Both the position numbers and the translations under genes were made by a program. A model generated the notes under the pieces. It ran no database searches and was not told where the DNA came from. It saw only the letters and a list, made by a program, of their open reading frames with translations. From positions 1 through 41,110 of the forward strand of contig JAFURI010000024.1 in the NCBI GenBank assembly GCA_017471885.1: a stretch of 41,110 nt of DNA, written 5' to 3'. This stretch comes from Clostridia bacterium (GTDB taxonomy: Bacteria; Bacillota; Clostridia; Christensenellales; Aristaeellaceae). Below, piece by piece: positions 675-14,669 of this stretch. The first letter of the stretch is position 1; the number at the start of each line of letters is the position of its first letter.

Positions 675-1892
675 TCACATCCGTCTGAGCGCGTCAATCG
701 GGCTGAGCTTGCTGGCCTTGCGGGCGGGCGACCAGCCGAAAATGACGCCCACGGCGGCGGAGAAGCCCACGCCCAGCATGATGGCGCCGTAGTTGATGGT
801 GAACTTCGTACCCATGACGGAACACATGACAGCGGATAAGATCAGGCCCAGCACGACGCCCGCCAGACCTCCTGTCACCGAGAGCAGGAAGGACTCGATC
901 AGGAACTGAATCTGGATCTGCGCCGGCTCCGCACCGATGGCCTTCTTCAGGCCGATCTCCACGGTACGCTCGGTGACGGAGGTCAGCATCATATTCATAA
1001 TGCCGATACCGCCCACCACCAGCGCAATGGACGCTATGCCGCCCAGCAAAGCGGACATCATGGACATCATGCTGTCCATGGTGGATTCAATGCTGTCCAT
1101 GGTCACAATGGAGAAGGTCTCGTCCTCATAGGCGAAGATTTCGTCCAGCTTGTCCTCCAGCGCGGCCTTCACGTCATCGGAGCTTTCAGGGGAGTCCATG
1201 TACACGGTGATGGAGGTCACCAGCGACTCGCCGTTCAGCTTCAGAGCGGTGGTGTAGGGCAGGTAGACAGACGGGGAACCGCCCATCATGCTGGAGATGG
1301 AGGAGTCGCTGTCCTCCGCCAGAATGCCGATCACCGTGAACTGAATGCCGCCGATATACAGCGTCTGACCGATGGGGTTCACGCCGTAGAAGAAGGTTTC
1401 CACCATGTCGCTGCCGATCAGGCATACCCTCGCCATGCCGTCCAGATCAATGGGCGTGATGGCCCGGCCCGATTCCAGCGCGTCCGGATTATTGACAAAA
1501 TAGTAATCGTTGGTGCCTGCAACGCTCACATTGGTTTCGCTGGCATTGTAGCGGGTCACCCTGGCCTTGAGCGACACGCTGGGCGTAACGCCGGTCACAT
1601 GATCCAGCTGCCGCAGCGCGTCCATATCCTCTGCGGAAAGACCGCCCTTCTGGTCGCTGCCAGGGGTGGAGACCGTCAGGCTGCCCGCGCCCATGGAGGT
1701 AAAGGAATCCGAGATGGAGGTGGATACGCCCGAGATGGTCGTAATCAGCGCAATGACCGCCGTTACGCCGATCAGGATGCCCAGGATCGTCAGGAAGGAG
1801 CGCATCCTGTTGGCGGTGATGTTGGCGATGGCCATCTTTACGCTTTCCACAAACATGTAGATTCCGCCCATCATTTTGCGGAAAATGTTCAT
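675..1892 (-). CDS. MacB/YknZ-like ABC transporter permease
   Basis: The 405-residue protein has the layout of a MacB-type permease: one N-terminal membrane helix (about residues 33-55), a large extracellular domain (about 60-275), then three C-terminal helices of an FtsX domain. The last part carries the typical conserved stretch around VTERTVEIGLKKAIGA and ends with an S-P-I-D-A-L-R motif, as is usual for the family. The start codon overlaps the stop codon of the ATPase gene by one base, so the two are translationally coupled. In Gram-positive bacteria such proteins work with an ATPase and a membrane-fusion adaptor to export peptides or remodel envelope components. The substrate cannot be read from the sequence. 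Confidence 0.93.
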   Translation of the reverse strand: MNIFRKMMGGIYMFVESVKMAIANITANRMRSFLTILGILIGVTAVIALITTISGVSTSISDSFTSMGAGSLTVSTPGSDQKGGLSAEDMDALRQLDHVTGVTPSVSLKARVTRYNASETNVSVAGTNDYYFVNNPDALESGRAITPIDLDGMARVCLIGSDMVETFFYGVNPIGQTLYIGGIQFTVIGILAEDSDSSISSMMGGSPSVYLPYTTALKLNGESLVTSITVYMDSPESSDDVKAALEDKLDEIFAYEDETFSIVTMDSIESTMDSMMSMMSALLGGIASIALVVGGIGIMNMMLTSVTERTVEIGLKKAIGAEPAQIQIQFLIESFLLSVTGGLAGVVLGLILSAVMCSVMGTKFTINYGAIMLGVGFSAAVGVIFGWSPARKASKLSPIDALRRM

Positions 1893-12455: not shown

Positions 12456-14669
12456 ATGATGAAGAGAATCCTTTCCCTGATGCTCTCCCTGATCCTGCTC
12501 GCCTCCTGCGCACAGGCGGAGGGCTGGCTGACCGAATCCCACGAGCCGGGCGCGGTGGACGCGGTCACCGACAAGACGGTGTACGACGCGGCTGATTCCG
12601 CAGGCACGGTGGTCAACGCCTCCGATCCCGGCACGCCCGGCCAGCAGGAGCAGATCGTCTACTCCTTCACGCCTCTGGACGTGGTGCTGGTGGTGGACGT
12701 ATCCGGCTCCATGGGCCGCTCCGACAGCTCAAAGGATCTGCTGGACTACGCCAAGGACGCAGCCTCCGCCTTCAGCCGGACGCTTTTGTCCATCAACCCC
12801 GCCAGCCGCGTGGGCGTGGTGGAGTTTTCCTCCGCCGCCTTTGTCGTCAGCAGCCTGAAGGGCCTGAACGACCAGTCCGCGCTGCTCTCCGCCATCGGGG
12901 GCATCCATCTGGGCGGCAACACCAACACCGGCAGCGGCTACGCAACGGCCGCATCGCTCCTGGAGAGTGAAGCCATGTCCGGCCGCCGCCGCATGGTGCT
13001 GATGATCACCGACGGCCTTGCCAACGAGGGCGAGGGCGATCCCGTCCAGTACGCCGTGTCGCAGGGCAGGAACTGCGCCGCCATGGGCAGCGTGTACACC
13101 ATCGGCCTTGTGGGCGGCATGGGCGAGAGCGAAAAGCGCGAAACCCGCCGGGTGCTCAACAGCGGCTATGAAACCCGCTACTTCGAGGTGGATTTTGATC
13201 AGGTAGGCGACGCGGGCGCCATGATCAACATGCTCACCACCTCCATCGCCGTGTCCGCCTCCTCGGGCGAGGTGGTGAACGAGGACGGCTCCGTTTCCGA
13301 AGGCAGCACCTATCAGCTGACGCTGGAGGGCGGCTATAACGCGCGCGTCCGGCATGCCAGCGGCGCCTCCCTGAGCAGCTATCCGGAGGACTACTCCGAC
13401 TCCGCGCCCTTCGGCACCATGACCAACGTGAACGGCCGCAAGCACTTTGTGCTGGTGGAGGACGACTACACCATTGATCTGGAGGGCGCCTCCTCCGGCC
13501 CCGGCAGCTTCAGCCTGTCCGCCATGCACGGCCTTGAGATGCAGGAGGAGCCGCTGGCCTCGCTGGGCGGCTGGTCTGATCCCTCCGTGGGCCGCCGCTA
13601 CGTCATCAGCGACGGGCAGATTTCCTCCTCCGATACCGGCTACAACCCCATTGATCCCACCGATACCGACCGGCAGGGCAATCCTGTGACCGGCAATCCC
13701 TCCATGGCGGACGCCATTTCGAAGGGCGCGGCGCAGGTCAAGGATGCTCCCACCAAGAAGGGCTCCAAGCTGGCCCAGCTGAAGAAGAACGATCACGTCG
13801 CCGTGCTGGCGCAGGATTCCGCTGCAGGGTACGCCTTCGTCGCCTATACCGACAAGGACGGAAAGCTCAGCCGCGGCTGGGTGGAAACCTCCCTGCTGAA
13901 GGAGATCAAGGGCTTTGTGCCCGAAATGCCCACGCTCGGCGGGCAGTACGCCGTGGCCTCGGACGTGGCCTCCCGCTGCGCGCCCGCTGATTCCGCTTCT
14001 GAAGCGCTTGCCCTGAAGGCCGGCGAGGAGGCGACCCTCCTCCATGTGGACCGTGATGCACAGGGCCGGGAATGGGCCTATGTGTCCGTTACCCGCAAGA
14101 AGGCGCAGCGCTGCGTCTACGTGCCCGCCGACTGTCTGCAGGGCTGGACGGCTATCGCGCCGGAGGGCTTCCGCATGTCCCATGCCCAGATGGAGAACGT
14201 CAGCGAGCTGTTCTTCCCTGCGGTCAACGTGGGCATGCTGAAGCTGAAGGTCTACTCCGCCCCCAGCACCAAATCCTGGCGCGGCGCAAAGGGTAAGGCC
14301 ATGGTTGCCACCGTGGGCGGCCTGTACGCCTGCGGCTGGGTGGATAACGGCTGGCTGCTGGTGCAGTACGGCACCTCCAACGATACCCGCCGTGTAGGCT
14401 ATGTGCAGGCTTCGGAGCTGCGCAGCGCCGCGCCCATCCTGCCGCAGATCACCTTTAACGCCGCTCCCGCCACCGTCCATACCGCCTGCGTGCTCACGGA
14501 TGATCCCGACACCATGAAGGAGCAGATCGTCTCCCTGAAGCCGGGCGCAAAAGTGACGTGGCTGGCCACCTACTCCTATCACGAAGGCGTTGAACTGGAC
14601 TACATCCAGACAAAGGTCAACAACAAGACCGTCCGCGGATTCATCCCGGCCGGGCATCTGGATAAATAA
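12456..14669 (+). CDS. Secreted von Willebrand factor A domain protein with SH3-like repeats
   Basis: The chosen start (MMKRILSL...) gives 737 residues and puts a signal peptide at the N terminus, which longer readings lack. The signal contains LASC, a good lipobox, but an A-Q-A cleavage site two residues later is an alternative. A vWA domain spans about residues 74-265 with an intact MIDAS: DVSGS (81-85), a Thr near 156-158 and TDG (185-187). The C-terminal half contains several SH3b-like segments, recognisable by endings such as R-G-W-V-E and V-R-G-F-I-P-A. These usually bind cell-wall peptides. The protein probably acts at the cell surface as a metal-dependent adhesion or scaffold partner of the preceding 1104-residue protein. 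Confidence 0.9.
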   Translation: MMKRILSLMLSLILLASCAQAEGWLTESHEPGAVDAVTDKTVYDAADSAGTVVNASDPGTPGQQEQIVYSFTPLDVVLVVDVSGSMGRSDSSKDLLDYAKDAASAFSRTLLSINPASRVGVVEFSSAAFVVSSLKGLNDQSALLSAIGGIHLGGNTNTGSGYATAASLLESEAMSGRRRMVLMITDGLANEGEGDPVQYAVSQGRNCAAMGSVYTIGLVGGMGESEKRETRRVLNSGYETRYFEVDFDQVGDAGAMINMLTTSIAVSASSGEVVNEDGSVSEGSTYQLTLEGGYNARVRHASGASLSSYPEDYSDSAPFGTMTNVNGRKHFVLVEDDYTIDLEGASSGPGSFSLSAMHGLEMQEEPLASLGGWSDPSVGRRYVISDGQISSSDTGYNPIDPTDTDRQGNPVTGNPSMADAISKGAAQVKDAPTKKGSKLAQLKKNDHVAVLAQDSAAGYAFVAYTDKDGKLSRGWVETSLLKEIKGFVPEMPTLGGQYAVASDVASRCAPADSASEALALKAGEEATLLHVDRDAQGREWAYVSVTRKKAQRCVYVPADCLQGWTAIAPEGFRMSHAQMENVSELFFPAVNVGMLKLKVYSAPSTKSWRGAKGKAMVATVGGLYACGWVDNGWLLVQYGTSNDTRRVGYVQASELRSAAPILPQITFNAAPATVHTACVLTDDPDTMKEQIVSLKPGAKVTWLATYSYHEGVELDYIQTKVNNKTVRGFIPAGHLDK

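Follow-up and report, generated by a model that had tools for sequence, protein, structure and literature searches.

MacB-type exporters are known from Gram-positive bacteria (PMC8277102, PMC5768738, PMC4338810), and the role of adaptors in bacteria that lack an outer membrane is named as a gap in the available excerpts of two reviews (PMC4446572, PMC4338810). According to the available excerpts of the sources, TriABC-OpmH is an RND pump with two different adaptors, TriA and TriB, both of which are required (PMC8277102, PMC4338810, PMC13328181), DSY0927 of Desulfitobacterium hafniense combines two distinct kinds of adaptor in one fused chain, one of them without a coiled coil, for a Gram-positive ABC transporter (PMC4338810), and BesA is an adaptor of Borrelia without an alpha-hairpin (PMC8277102, PMC4446572). 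Three upregulated adaptors, of RND pumps, are mentioned in passing in an excerpt of a review on uranium resistance (PMC8963506). The statement of the first-pass annotation that YknXYZ/MacB-type systems normally use one adaptor is therefore to be qualified, because exceptions such as TriABC are on record in these excerpts.

The window, which is the whole stretch of 41,110 nucleotides analysed here, contains a densely packed operon at 675-8873 on the minus strand, with the gene order ADP1-ADP2-PTS-ADP3-ATPase-MacB-type permease. Three adaptors, ADP1, ADP2 and ADP3, all of the HlyD/RND-MFP type, are thus encoded for one permease and one ABC ATPase, together with a secreted protein with Pro-Thr repeats, PTS, as the first-pass annotation had described. 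The ADP1 and ADP2 genes overlap by 4 bases, and the ATPase and permease genes by 1 base. A gene for a YknW-like four-segment membrane protein is found neither between nor immediately flanking the six genes (675-8873), a gene for a TolC-like outer-membrane partner is absent from the operon, and no histidine kinase gene neighbours the operon in the window. Omp85 gives no match in the genome of the window, which is 77% complete, and is detected in seven of 14 control genomes. The host is probably a single-membrane bacterium. Reading the operon as a defence system is rejected, because the matches of the permease and the ATPase in a PADLOC search look generic.

The permease (675..1892, minus strand, 405 aa) has four hydrophobic segments (29-61, 274-307, 330-366 and 366-389) and an extracellular MacB core domain that separates the first of them from the second, the arrangement that characterizes the MacB type (type VII). 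It is matched by MacB_PCD and FtsX (PF12704, E 2e-41, residues 32-247, and PF02687, E 1.3e-20, residues 286-398), and the MacB structure 5lil is matched over residues 13-403 with a phmmer E of 9.7e-61. The ATPase (1892..2614, minus strand, 240 aa; PF00005, E 2.7e-34) is a separate chain and is MacB/LolD-like; its best NCBIfam scores are those of MacB and LolD, FtsE also scores, and none of these scores is above the curated cut-off.

The adaptors fall into two kinds by hydropathy: ADP1 and ADP3 are predicted to be membrane-anchored, whereas ADP2 is predicted to be secreted and to have no further anchor. Matches to HlyD_3, HlyD_D23 and Biotin_lipoyl indicate that lipoyl (barrel-sandwich) and beta-barrel domains are present in all three. 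ADP1 (7725..8873, minus strand, 382 aa; HlyD_3 E 1.1e-9, RND_mfp E 3.3e-21), which is encoded by the first gene of the operon, has a single hydrophobic segment at 17-36, and ADP3 (2629..3639, minus strand, 336 aa; RND_mfp E 1.4e-31) has one at 14-39; in both proteins this N-terminal segment is preceded by a basic stretch. The two lipoyl half-motifs are only a few residues apart (Pfam stretches 84-104 and 110-201 in ADP1, 74-103 and 106-183 in ADP3) and leave no space for a hairpin; the alpha-helical hairpin between the lipoyl halves is accordingly absent from both sequences. Among the PDB sequences the best solved match of ADP3 is 4kks (phmmer E 1.8e-9), which we take to be BesA.

ADP2 (6691..7728, minus strand, 345 aa) is matched by HlyD_3 in two stretches and consists of two tandem barrel-sandwich and barrel halves, which are homologous to each other (hhalign probability 98.3, E 1.6e-14). 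Its sole hydrophobic segment is N-terminal (3-22) and is read from the sequence as a putative signal peptide. ADP2 is unusual in that it is apparently a Sec-secreted, unanchored adaptor, and its internal tandem duplication makes it a fused adaptor dimer. In one related locus (L125), ADP2 is fused to a binding-protein-like part, and Pfam scored the adaptor half only. Beyond the family, a class-level search for ADP2 (391 genomes, E 1e-20) gives only two partial and weak matches, besides that of the own genome; no more than five preliminary candidates were scored in each genome, and misses are therefore possible.

PTS (3651..6674, minus strand), the start ATG of which is read at 6674, 16 bases past the end of ADP2, has a Sec-like N-terminus, Pro-Thr linkers (PF04886, PT repeat) and a C-terminal domain, PTSC (3654..4199, minus strand, 182 aa in the window; alignment of 56 sequences). 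PTS is defined by this domain of about 175 aa and not by a Pro-Thr stalk, because a Pro-rich stretch, by the criterion used here, is absent from six of the 17 type I PTS proteins measured, three of the 17 being merely 235-257 aa long. This result speaks against the earlier idea that the stalk is an essential conduit through the wall. PTSC adjoins ADP2 in 52 of 56 places. It has no Pfam match and no NCBIfam family, and the search of the PDB sequences gives no match (best E 0.34); PTSC is a domain family without a sequence-detectable solved relative. It is restricted to one family in the searches made: ten of 297 genomes match at the order level, the own genome included and all ten from the same family, and the class-level search of 391 genomes gives the own genome as its one match. 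PTS is probably not cargo of the pump, because it has a Sec-like start, and is not indispensable, because one related locus (L100) carries the operon without it.

The order ADP1-ADP2-PTS-ADP3-ATP-PERM is kept in 13 of the 14 named loci that have ADP1, and the suggestion that a multi-adaptor envelope machine is conserved as a unit is supported by this order. An additional adaptor, ADP2', follows the permease in all 13 loci whose contig continues past the permease, so that the relatives have four adaptors. ADP2' is absent from the window, where a tblastn search of bases 1-700 with the ADP2' of four relatives gives chance matches only; the contig ends at base 1, and ADP2' could therefore be encoded elsewhere in the genome. 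Among the related loci, 12 of 72 have PERM-ADP2 without a subsequent PTS-ADP2 pair. A histidine kinase gene, or a pair of histidine kinase and response regulator genes, lies divergently next to ADP1 in six of the 14 loci (two pairs were checked with Pfam), and the other eight have no labelled kinase gene adjoining ADP1.

The explanation that we favour, tentatively, is a MacB-type transporter whose differentiated adaptors are stacked into a conduit capped by PTS and which would move or sense an envelope-active compound; both function and assembly are proposed from the genes. The machine would be a MacB-type (type VII, mechanotransmission) ABC system with an extracellular side made of several differentiated adaptors. 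The anchored, hairpin-less ADP1 and ADP3 may form a mixed ring upon the permease dimer, and ADP2, as a covalent adaptor dimer, may form one or more extra rings stacked on the ADP1/ADP3 ring, together with ADP2' where it is present. PTS would be exported via Sec and not by the pump, and its PTSC domain would bind the ADP2 layer, capping it or tethering it in the wall. The ATP-driven motion of the permease would be relayed via the rings, in such a way that a peptide or amphiphile already located on the membrane's outer side is moved into or off the wall. The kinase and regulator pair beside the operon in some relatives suggests induction by envelope stress. Several observations weigh against this explanation: the window has neither ADP2' nor a kinase gene next to the operon, eight of the 14 ADP1 loci show no labelled kinase gene at that place, L100 carries the operon but not PTS, the PTS and ADP2 pair is found apart from this exporter in type II loci, and the pair is missing behind PERM-ADP2 in 12 of 72 loci.

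It is possible, though unlikely, that the operon encodes an FtsEX-like signal transmitter, in which the ABC pair would shift the stacked adaptors in order to control the extracellular PTS or to sense the state of the wall, with the histidine kinase as its partner. The MacB/FtsX superfamily contains non-transport members, FtsX models score on the permease too, the kinase is found beside ADP1 in the six loci mentioned, and PTS with its Sec-like start is probably not cargo. However, MacB models score far better on the permease than FtsX models do, and the window is without an adjacent kinase. In addition, the adaptor rings that known MacA and YknX relatives form are interpreted as conduits in the excerpts available (PMC8277102, PMC5768738).

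That the operon encodes a conventional efflux pump for drugs or peptides, with the surplus adaptors as redundant duplicates without a distinct role, is unlikely. The adaptors are mutually related, and pumps with two adaptors are described in the source excerpts (PMC8277102, PMC4338810). However, ADP1 (monophyletic, 15 sequences, support 1.0), ADP3 (32 sequences, 0.938) and the first-position ADP2 form separate, well-supported clades. ADP2 paralogues cluster according to operon position: the type I first-gene clade, which includes the window, has 17 sequences (0.999), the type II clade 30 (0.977), and the clade of the ADP2 that is encoded behind the permease, in type III and similar loci, 17 (0.994); the nodes of the last ADP2 of type III (eight sequences, 0.494) and of type I (21, 0.263) are weak. 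The first-position ADP2 of relatives is about 42-59% identical to that of the window, and yet its position is kept. This divergence and the separate clades indicate that the adaptors are old and not interchangeable.

The PTS and ADP2 pair is also found in two further operon types, one of them with a binding-protein ABC importer. Type II loci contain the pair without the MacB-type exporter, indicating that the pair is not dedicated to the exporter; scattering of secreted homologues away from the exporter, which the first-pass annotation had named as evidence against its proposal, is thus partly observed. In these loci a binding-protein-dependent importer is followed by an adaptor with a hairpin and by a permease with a MacB core, for which the cluster contains no separate ATPase gene. 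It is conceivable, but quite unlikely, that ADP2 and PTSC constitute a portable extracellular conduit cap which the family fits onto varied ABC machines, the type II importer among them. A bacterium with a single membrane would then use adaptor tubes for uptake, or for traffic in both directions, across its wall. Use of adaptor tubes for either was not found in the literature searched on adaptors. The family has multiplied and specialized its adaptors, with the hairpin lost in the anchored ones and one kind apparently membrane-free and paired with a new domain, and types I, II and III are a natural series for asking which adaptors and transporters belong together and whether any cargo passes through the tube.

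Two large secreted proteins, BIG (9113..12427, plus strand, 1104 aa) and VWA (12456..14669, plus strand, start ATG read at 12456), are encoded divergently, as had been described. The vWA domain of the latter is confirmed (VWA_2, E 8.9e-20); for its SH3-like repeats, SH3_3 scores only E 1.3e-4, under its cut-off. BIG matches two of 120 family genomes, the own genome included, and its one match among the 119 others is weak and partial; 25 pattern matches in genome contigs gave no confirmed homologue, PADLOC gave none, and the best E against PDB sequences is 0.48. The 72 named related loci contain a homologue of neither protein. Among all ORFs of 112 fetched loci, VWA has no homologue at E 0.001, and BIG has one, in a locus (L057) that had been retrieved because of this match and in which no exporter is seen. 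VWA matches 90 of the 120 family genomes including its own, mostly in the C-terminal region of about 140 aa and in some in the vWA domain. When the places of VWA and ADP2 were compared by eye, only those of the window are within 15 kb among the matches listed, in which the nearest pair outside the window is about 17 kb apart (G025:C3). BIG, an orphan, and VWA, of unrelated distribution and matched elsewhere mostly in its C-terminal module, are both rejected as components of the system, and look like local neighbours of unrelated distribution rather than parts of the machine. A surface-display or envelope-assembly machine dedicated to BIG, VWA and PTS, to which their adjacent genes and Sec-like N-termini might point, is highly improbable and largely refuted for BIG and VWA by these distributions, and Sec-exported proteins leave the cell without needing a pump.

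A system of the same composition was not found in the literature searched on multi-adaptor pumps and MacB-type exporters, as far as the excerpts extend, in agreement with the first-pass annotation, and no literature was found on membrane fusion proteins of Christensenellales or transporters of Pullichristensenella. Judged from the available excerpts on the known systems, the operon resembles MacAB, YknWXYZ and Spr0693-0694-0695 in having an ABC ATPase, a four-segment MacB-core permease and a putatively anchored adaptor. It differs from these systems, which have one adaptor, in having three to four adaptors, of which the anchored ones are hairpin-less, and in having an apparently unanchored fused adaptor with a PTS partner and no YknW-like protein in the operon. 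ADP1 and ADP3 are hairpin-less like BesA, but BesA, as its sources describe it, serves an RND pump with an outer-membrane partner. Like TriABC-OpmH, the operon encodes several different adaptors per pump, the evidence here being co-conservation seen from the genes; TriABC-OpmH differs in that it is an RND and not an ABC system, its host has two membranes, and an unanchored fused adaptor is not mentioned in the excerpts. ADP2 resembles DSY0927 in carrying two adaptor units per chain for an ABC transporter, but the two halves of ADP2 share homology, whereas the fused units of DSY0927 are described in its source excerpt as belonging to two distinct kinds of adaptor.

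The window is the entire contig C89 of its own genome (145 contigs, 77% complete), and its minus strand contains, from 8873 to 675, six closely spaced genes, which by ORF reading encode the adaptors ADP1 and ADP2, the Pro-Thr-repeat secreted protein PTS, the third adaptor ADP3, an ATPase, and a permease, in this order. Pfam and NCBIfam identify the permease as MacB-type and the ATPase as MacB/LolD-like, and give HlyD/RND-adaptor matches for each of ADP1, ADP2, and ADP3, so that the sharing of one operon by these six proteins, as proposed in the first-pass annotation, is confirmed. 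According to hydropathy, ADP1 and ADP3 each have a single N-terminal hydrophobic segment, which is read from the sequence as a membrane anchor, ADP2 and PTS have a signal-peptide-like N-terminus, and the permease has four hydrophobic segments. The Pro-Thr repeats of PTS, detected by Pfam, are also visible as tandem repeats in the DNA. Two very long mirror ORFs, at 3633-6857 (plus strand) and 9233-12433 (minus strand), lie opposite PTS and opposite the 1104-aa secreted protein BIG, respectively; they are read as by-products of composition rather than genes.

ADP2 is matched in 85 of the 120 family genomes, own included, at E 0.001, though the weaker matches may be other adaptors. Forty stretches were fetched first, nearly all around ADP2 matches in family genomes, and 72 distinct named loci were then fetched from the best 80 of 95 matches of the ADP2 profile, used as one degenerate pattern, in a species-genome collection. 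The counts of operon types are restricted to these 72 loci, because many of the 40 stretches duplicate contigs among them. Their taxa are given as Clostridia, Clostridiales, Eubacteriales, Christensenella(ceae), and in one case just 'bacterium', with the Candidatus genera Pullichristensenella, Ventricola, Faecivicinus, Fimadaptatus, and Faecaligallichristensenella; we take them to be the order Christensenellales. Pullichristensenella is placed under Clostridia incertae sedis by NCBI. Many of these loci are labelled with gut sites of deer, goat, sheep, or buffalo.

Gene labels assigned by a greedy script give three arrangements. Type I comprises 19 loci, of which 14 contain ADP1 and 5 are cut. 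The order ADP1-ADP2-PTS-ADP3-ATP-PERM is kept in 13 of the 14, including L102, which is cut in PERM; L100 has this operon without PTS. In all 13 type I loci with contig sequence beyond PERM, a second ADP2-like gene, ADP2', comes next. The window belongs to type I but lacks ADP2', despite 674 bases 3' of its permease. GC-rich short palindromic repeats occupy this space (1-674), the place of ADP2' in relatives, with a tandem array at 218-284. A histidine kinase, alone or with a response regulator, is encoded divergently beside ADP1 in 6 of the 14 loci (L077, L079, L080, L089, L100, and L102), and the pairs of L080 and L102 are confirmed by Pfam. Two-component systems encoded divergently upstream control some tripartite pumps, according to one review.

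Type II (31 loci) has the order PTS-ADP2-binding protein(s)-two importer permeases-hairpin adaptor-MacB-core permease. The terminal permease is labelled in 19 loci; of the other 12, 11 reach or nearly reach the limit of their stretch, and L116 continues without one. In the example L095 (1-9504, 30 similar loci), SBP_bac_8, two BPD_transp_1, Biotin_lipoyl, and MacB_PCD are supported by Pfam, and the 445-aa adaptor is read from its sequence as containing a hairpin. In type II clusters, the genes from PTS to the MacB-core permease include no labelled ATPase; the ATPase labels of L106 lie beyond the permease. A single 1284-aa frame, L125:9914-13768 (plus strand), combines an ADP2-type fused adaptor with a type II binding-protein-like part; in this frame, Pfam gave a score for the adaptor half only. 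The window itself contains two distinct sugar-type ABC importer clusters, each with a binding protein and two permeases by sequence reading (22417-27376 and 37926-41109), and the ORF list has no adaptor or PTS gene adjoining them. Type III (7 loci) has the order (ADP3-ATP-)PERM-ADP2-PTS-ADP2'', with ADP3 labelled in 4. The remaining loci are 12 with PERM-ADP2 and no PTS-ADP2 pair labelled downstream, and 3 cut PTS-ADP2 pairs. Judged from the spacing of places that were partly fetched, types I and II apparently coexist in G005 and G052, and types II and III in G031 and G040. With two types apparently present in several genomes, one type does not exclude another. The own genome encodes a second full-length ADP2 on contig C83 (L053:9685-13812, minus strand), where its neighbours are an ATPase and an FtsX-like permease of 782 aa.

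The half-profiles of ADP2 align with each other over 114 columns (probability 98.3, E 1.6e-14), and ADP2 is, as judged from its sequence, a fused dimer; among solved structures, MacA-type adaptors match its sequence best. In a midpoint-rooted tree, from which minus-strand and under-300-aa frames were left out, the 94 ADP2 sequences cluster by operon position. The type I first genes (17, window included) are supported at 0.999, the type II sequences (30) at 0.977, and the post-permease sequences of type III and PERM-ADP2 loci (17) at 0.994. The type I last ADP2 joins the type I first at a node of 0.99, its own node being weak (21 sequences, 0.263), as is that of the type III last ADP2 (8 sequences, 0.494). 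ADP1 (15 sequences, 1.0) and ADP3 (32, 0.938) likewise form separate clades. It follows from these groupings that most operon positions represent old, distinct subunits.

Only the final ~175 aa of PTS (PTSC) are conserved throughout, and complete frames range from 235 to 1223 aa. When windows of 20 residues containing 4 or more Pro are counted as Pro-rich, no such part is present in 6 of the 17 type I PTS proteins measured (L077, L081, L084, L090, L092, and L117); these 17 represent all 19 type I loci, whether full or partial, apart from L100, which has no PTS, and L083, which is cut and was left out. The L077 and L081 proteins are long yet Pro-poor, and the called start of the latter has no clear signal peptide. 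The PTSC profile matches 56 places in 45 of the 120 family genomes, 10 of 297 genomes at the order level, all from the same family, and 1 of 391 at the class level, the own genome being included at each level and the sole match at the last.

The first-pass annotation proposed a search for co-occurrence of the secreted proteins with the exporter. PTS is closely linked to ADP2: 52 of the 56 PTSC places have a typed ADP2 place no more than 4 kb away in the same orientation, and one of the other four is at a contig end; the pair also occurs in type II loci, which lack this exporter. Co-occurrence with the exporter does not hold for BIG (9113-12427), which, like the vWA protein VWA (12456-14669), is encoded divergently from the operon and has a Sec-like start by hydropathy. 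BIG is matched in 2 of the 120 genomes including own, and the other, G024, matches residues 5-127 only and has no ADP2 or PTSC match. VWA is matched in 90 of the 120, own included; among the matches listed, most cover residues ~595-736 and some the vWA domain, and its ~140-aa C-terminal module (14238-14666) is common to many other family proteins. A comparison with every ORF of loci L033-L144 (112 loci) gives no VWA homologue and one BIG homologue, at L057, itself fetched for its BIG match. The grouping of BIG and VWA with the exporter is not upheld by these counts.

For the assembly of the adaptors, the permease, and PTS, we infer the following throughout. In known MacB-type systems, hexameric adaptor rings sit on a permease dimer. 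ADP1 and ADP3 may be alternating anchored subunits and ADP2 a covalent pair, and three copies of each of ADP1, ADP3, and ADP2 would form a six-fold ring. PTS and ADP2 are both read as components, not cargo, because they carry Sec-like signals. The adaptors probably serve no outer membrane, because the own genome, at 77% completeness, has no Omp85 match; the hairpin-less anchored adaptors, as predicted from sequence, agree with this. Gram-positive relatives handle peptides or amphiphiles, as described for YknWXYZ and SdpC.

In the literature searched on adaptors and MacB-type exporters, no counterpart was met of the six-gene combination, of an unanchored, internally duplicated adaptor such as ADP2, of the PTSC domain, or of the reuse of ADP2 and PTS in an importer-type cluster. 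TriABC and DSY0927 are precedents for the multi-adaptor idea, and BesA is a precedent for an adaptor without a hairpin.
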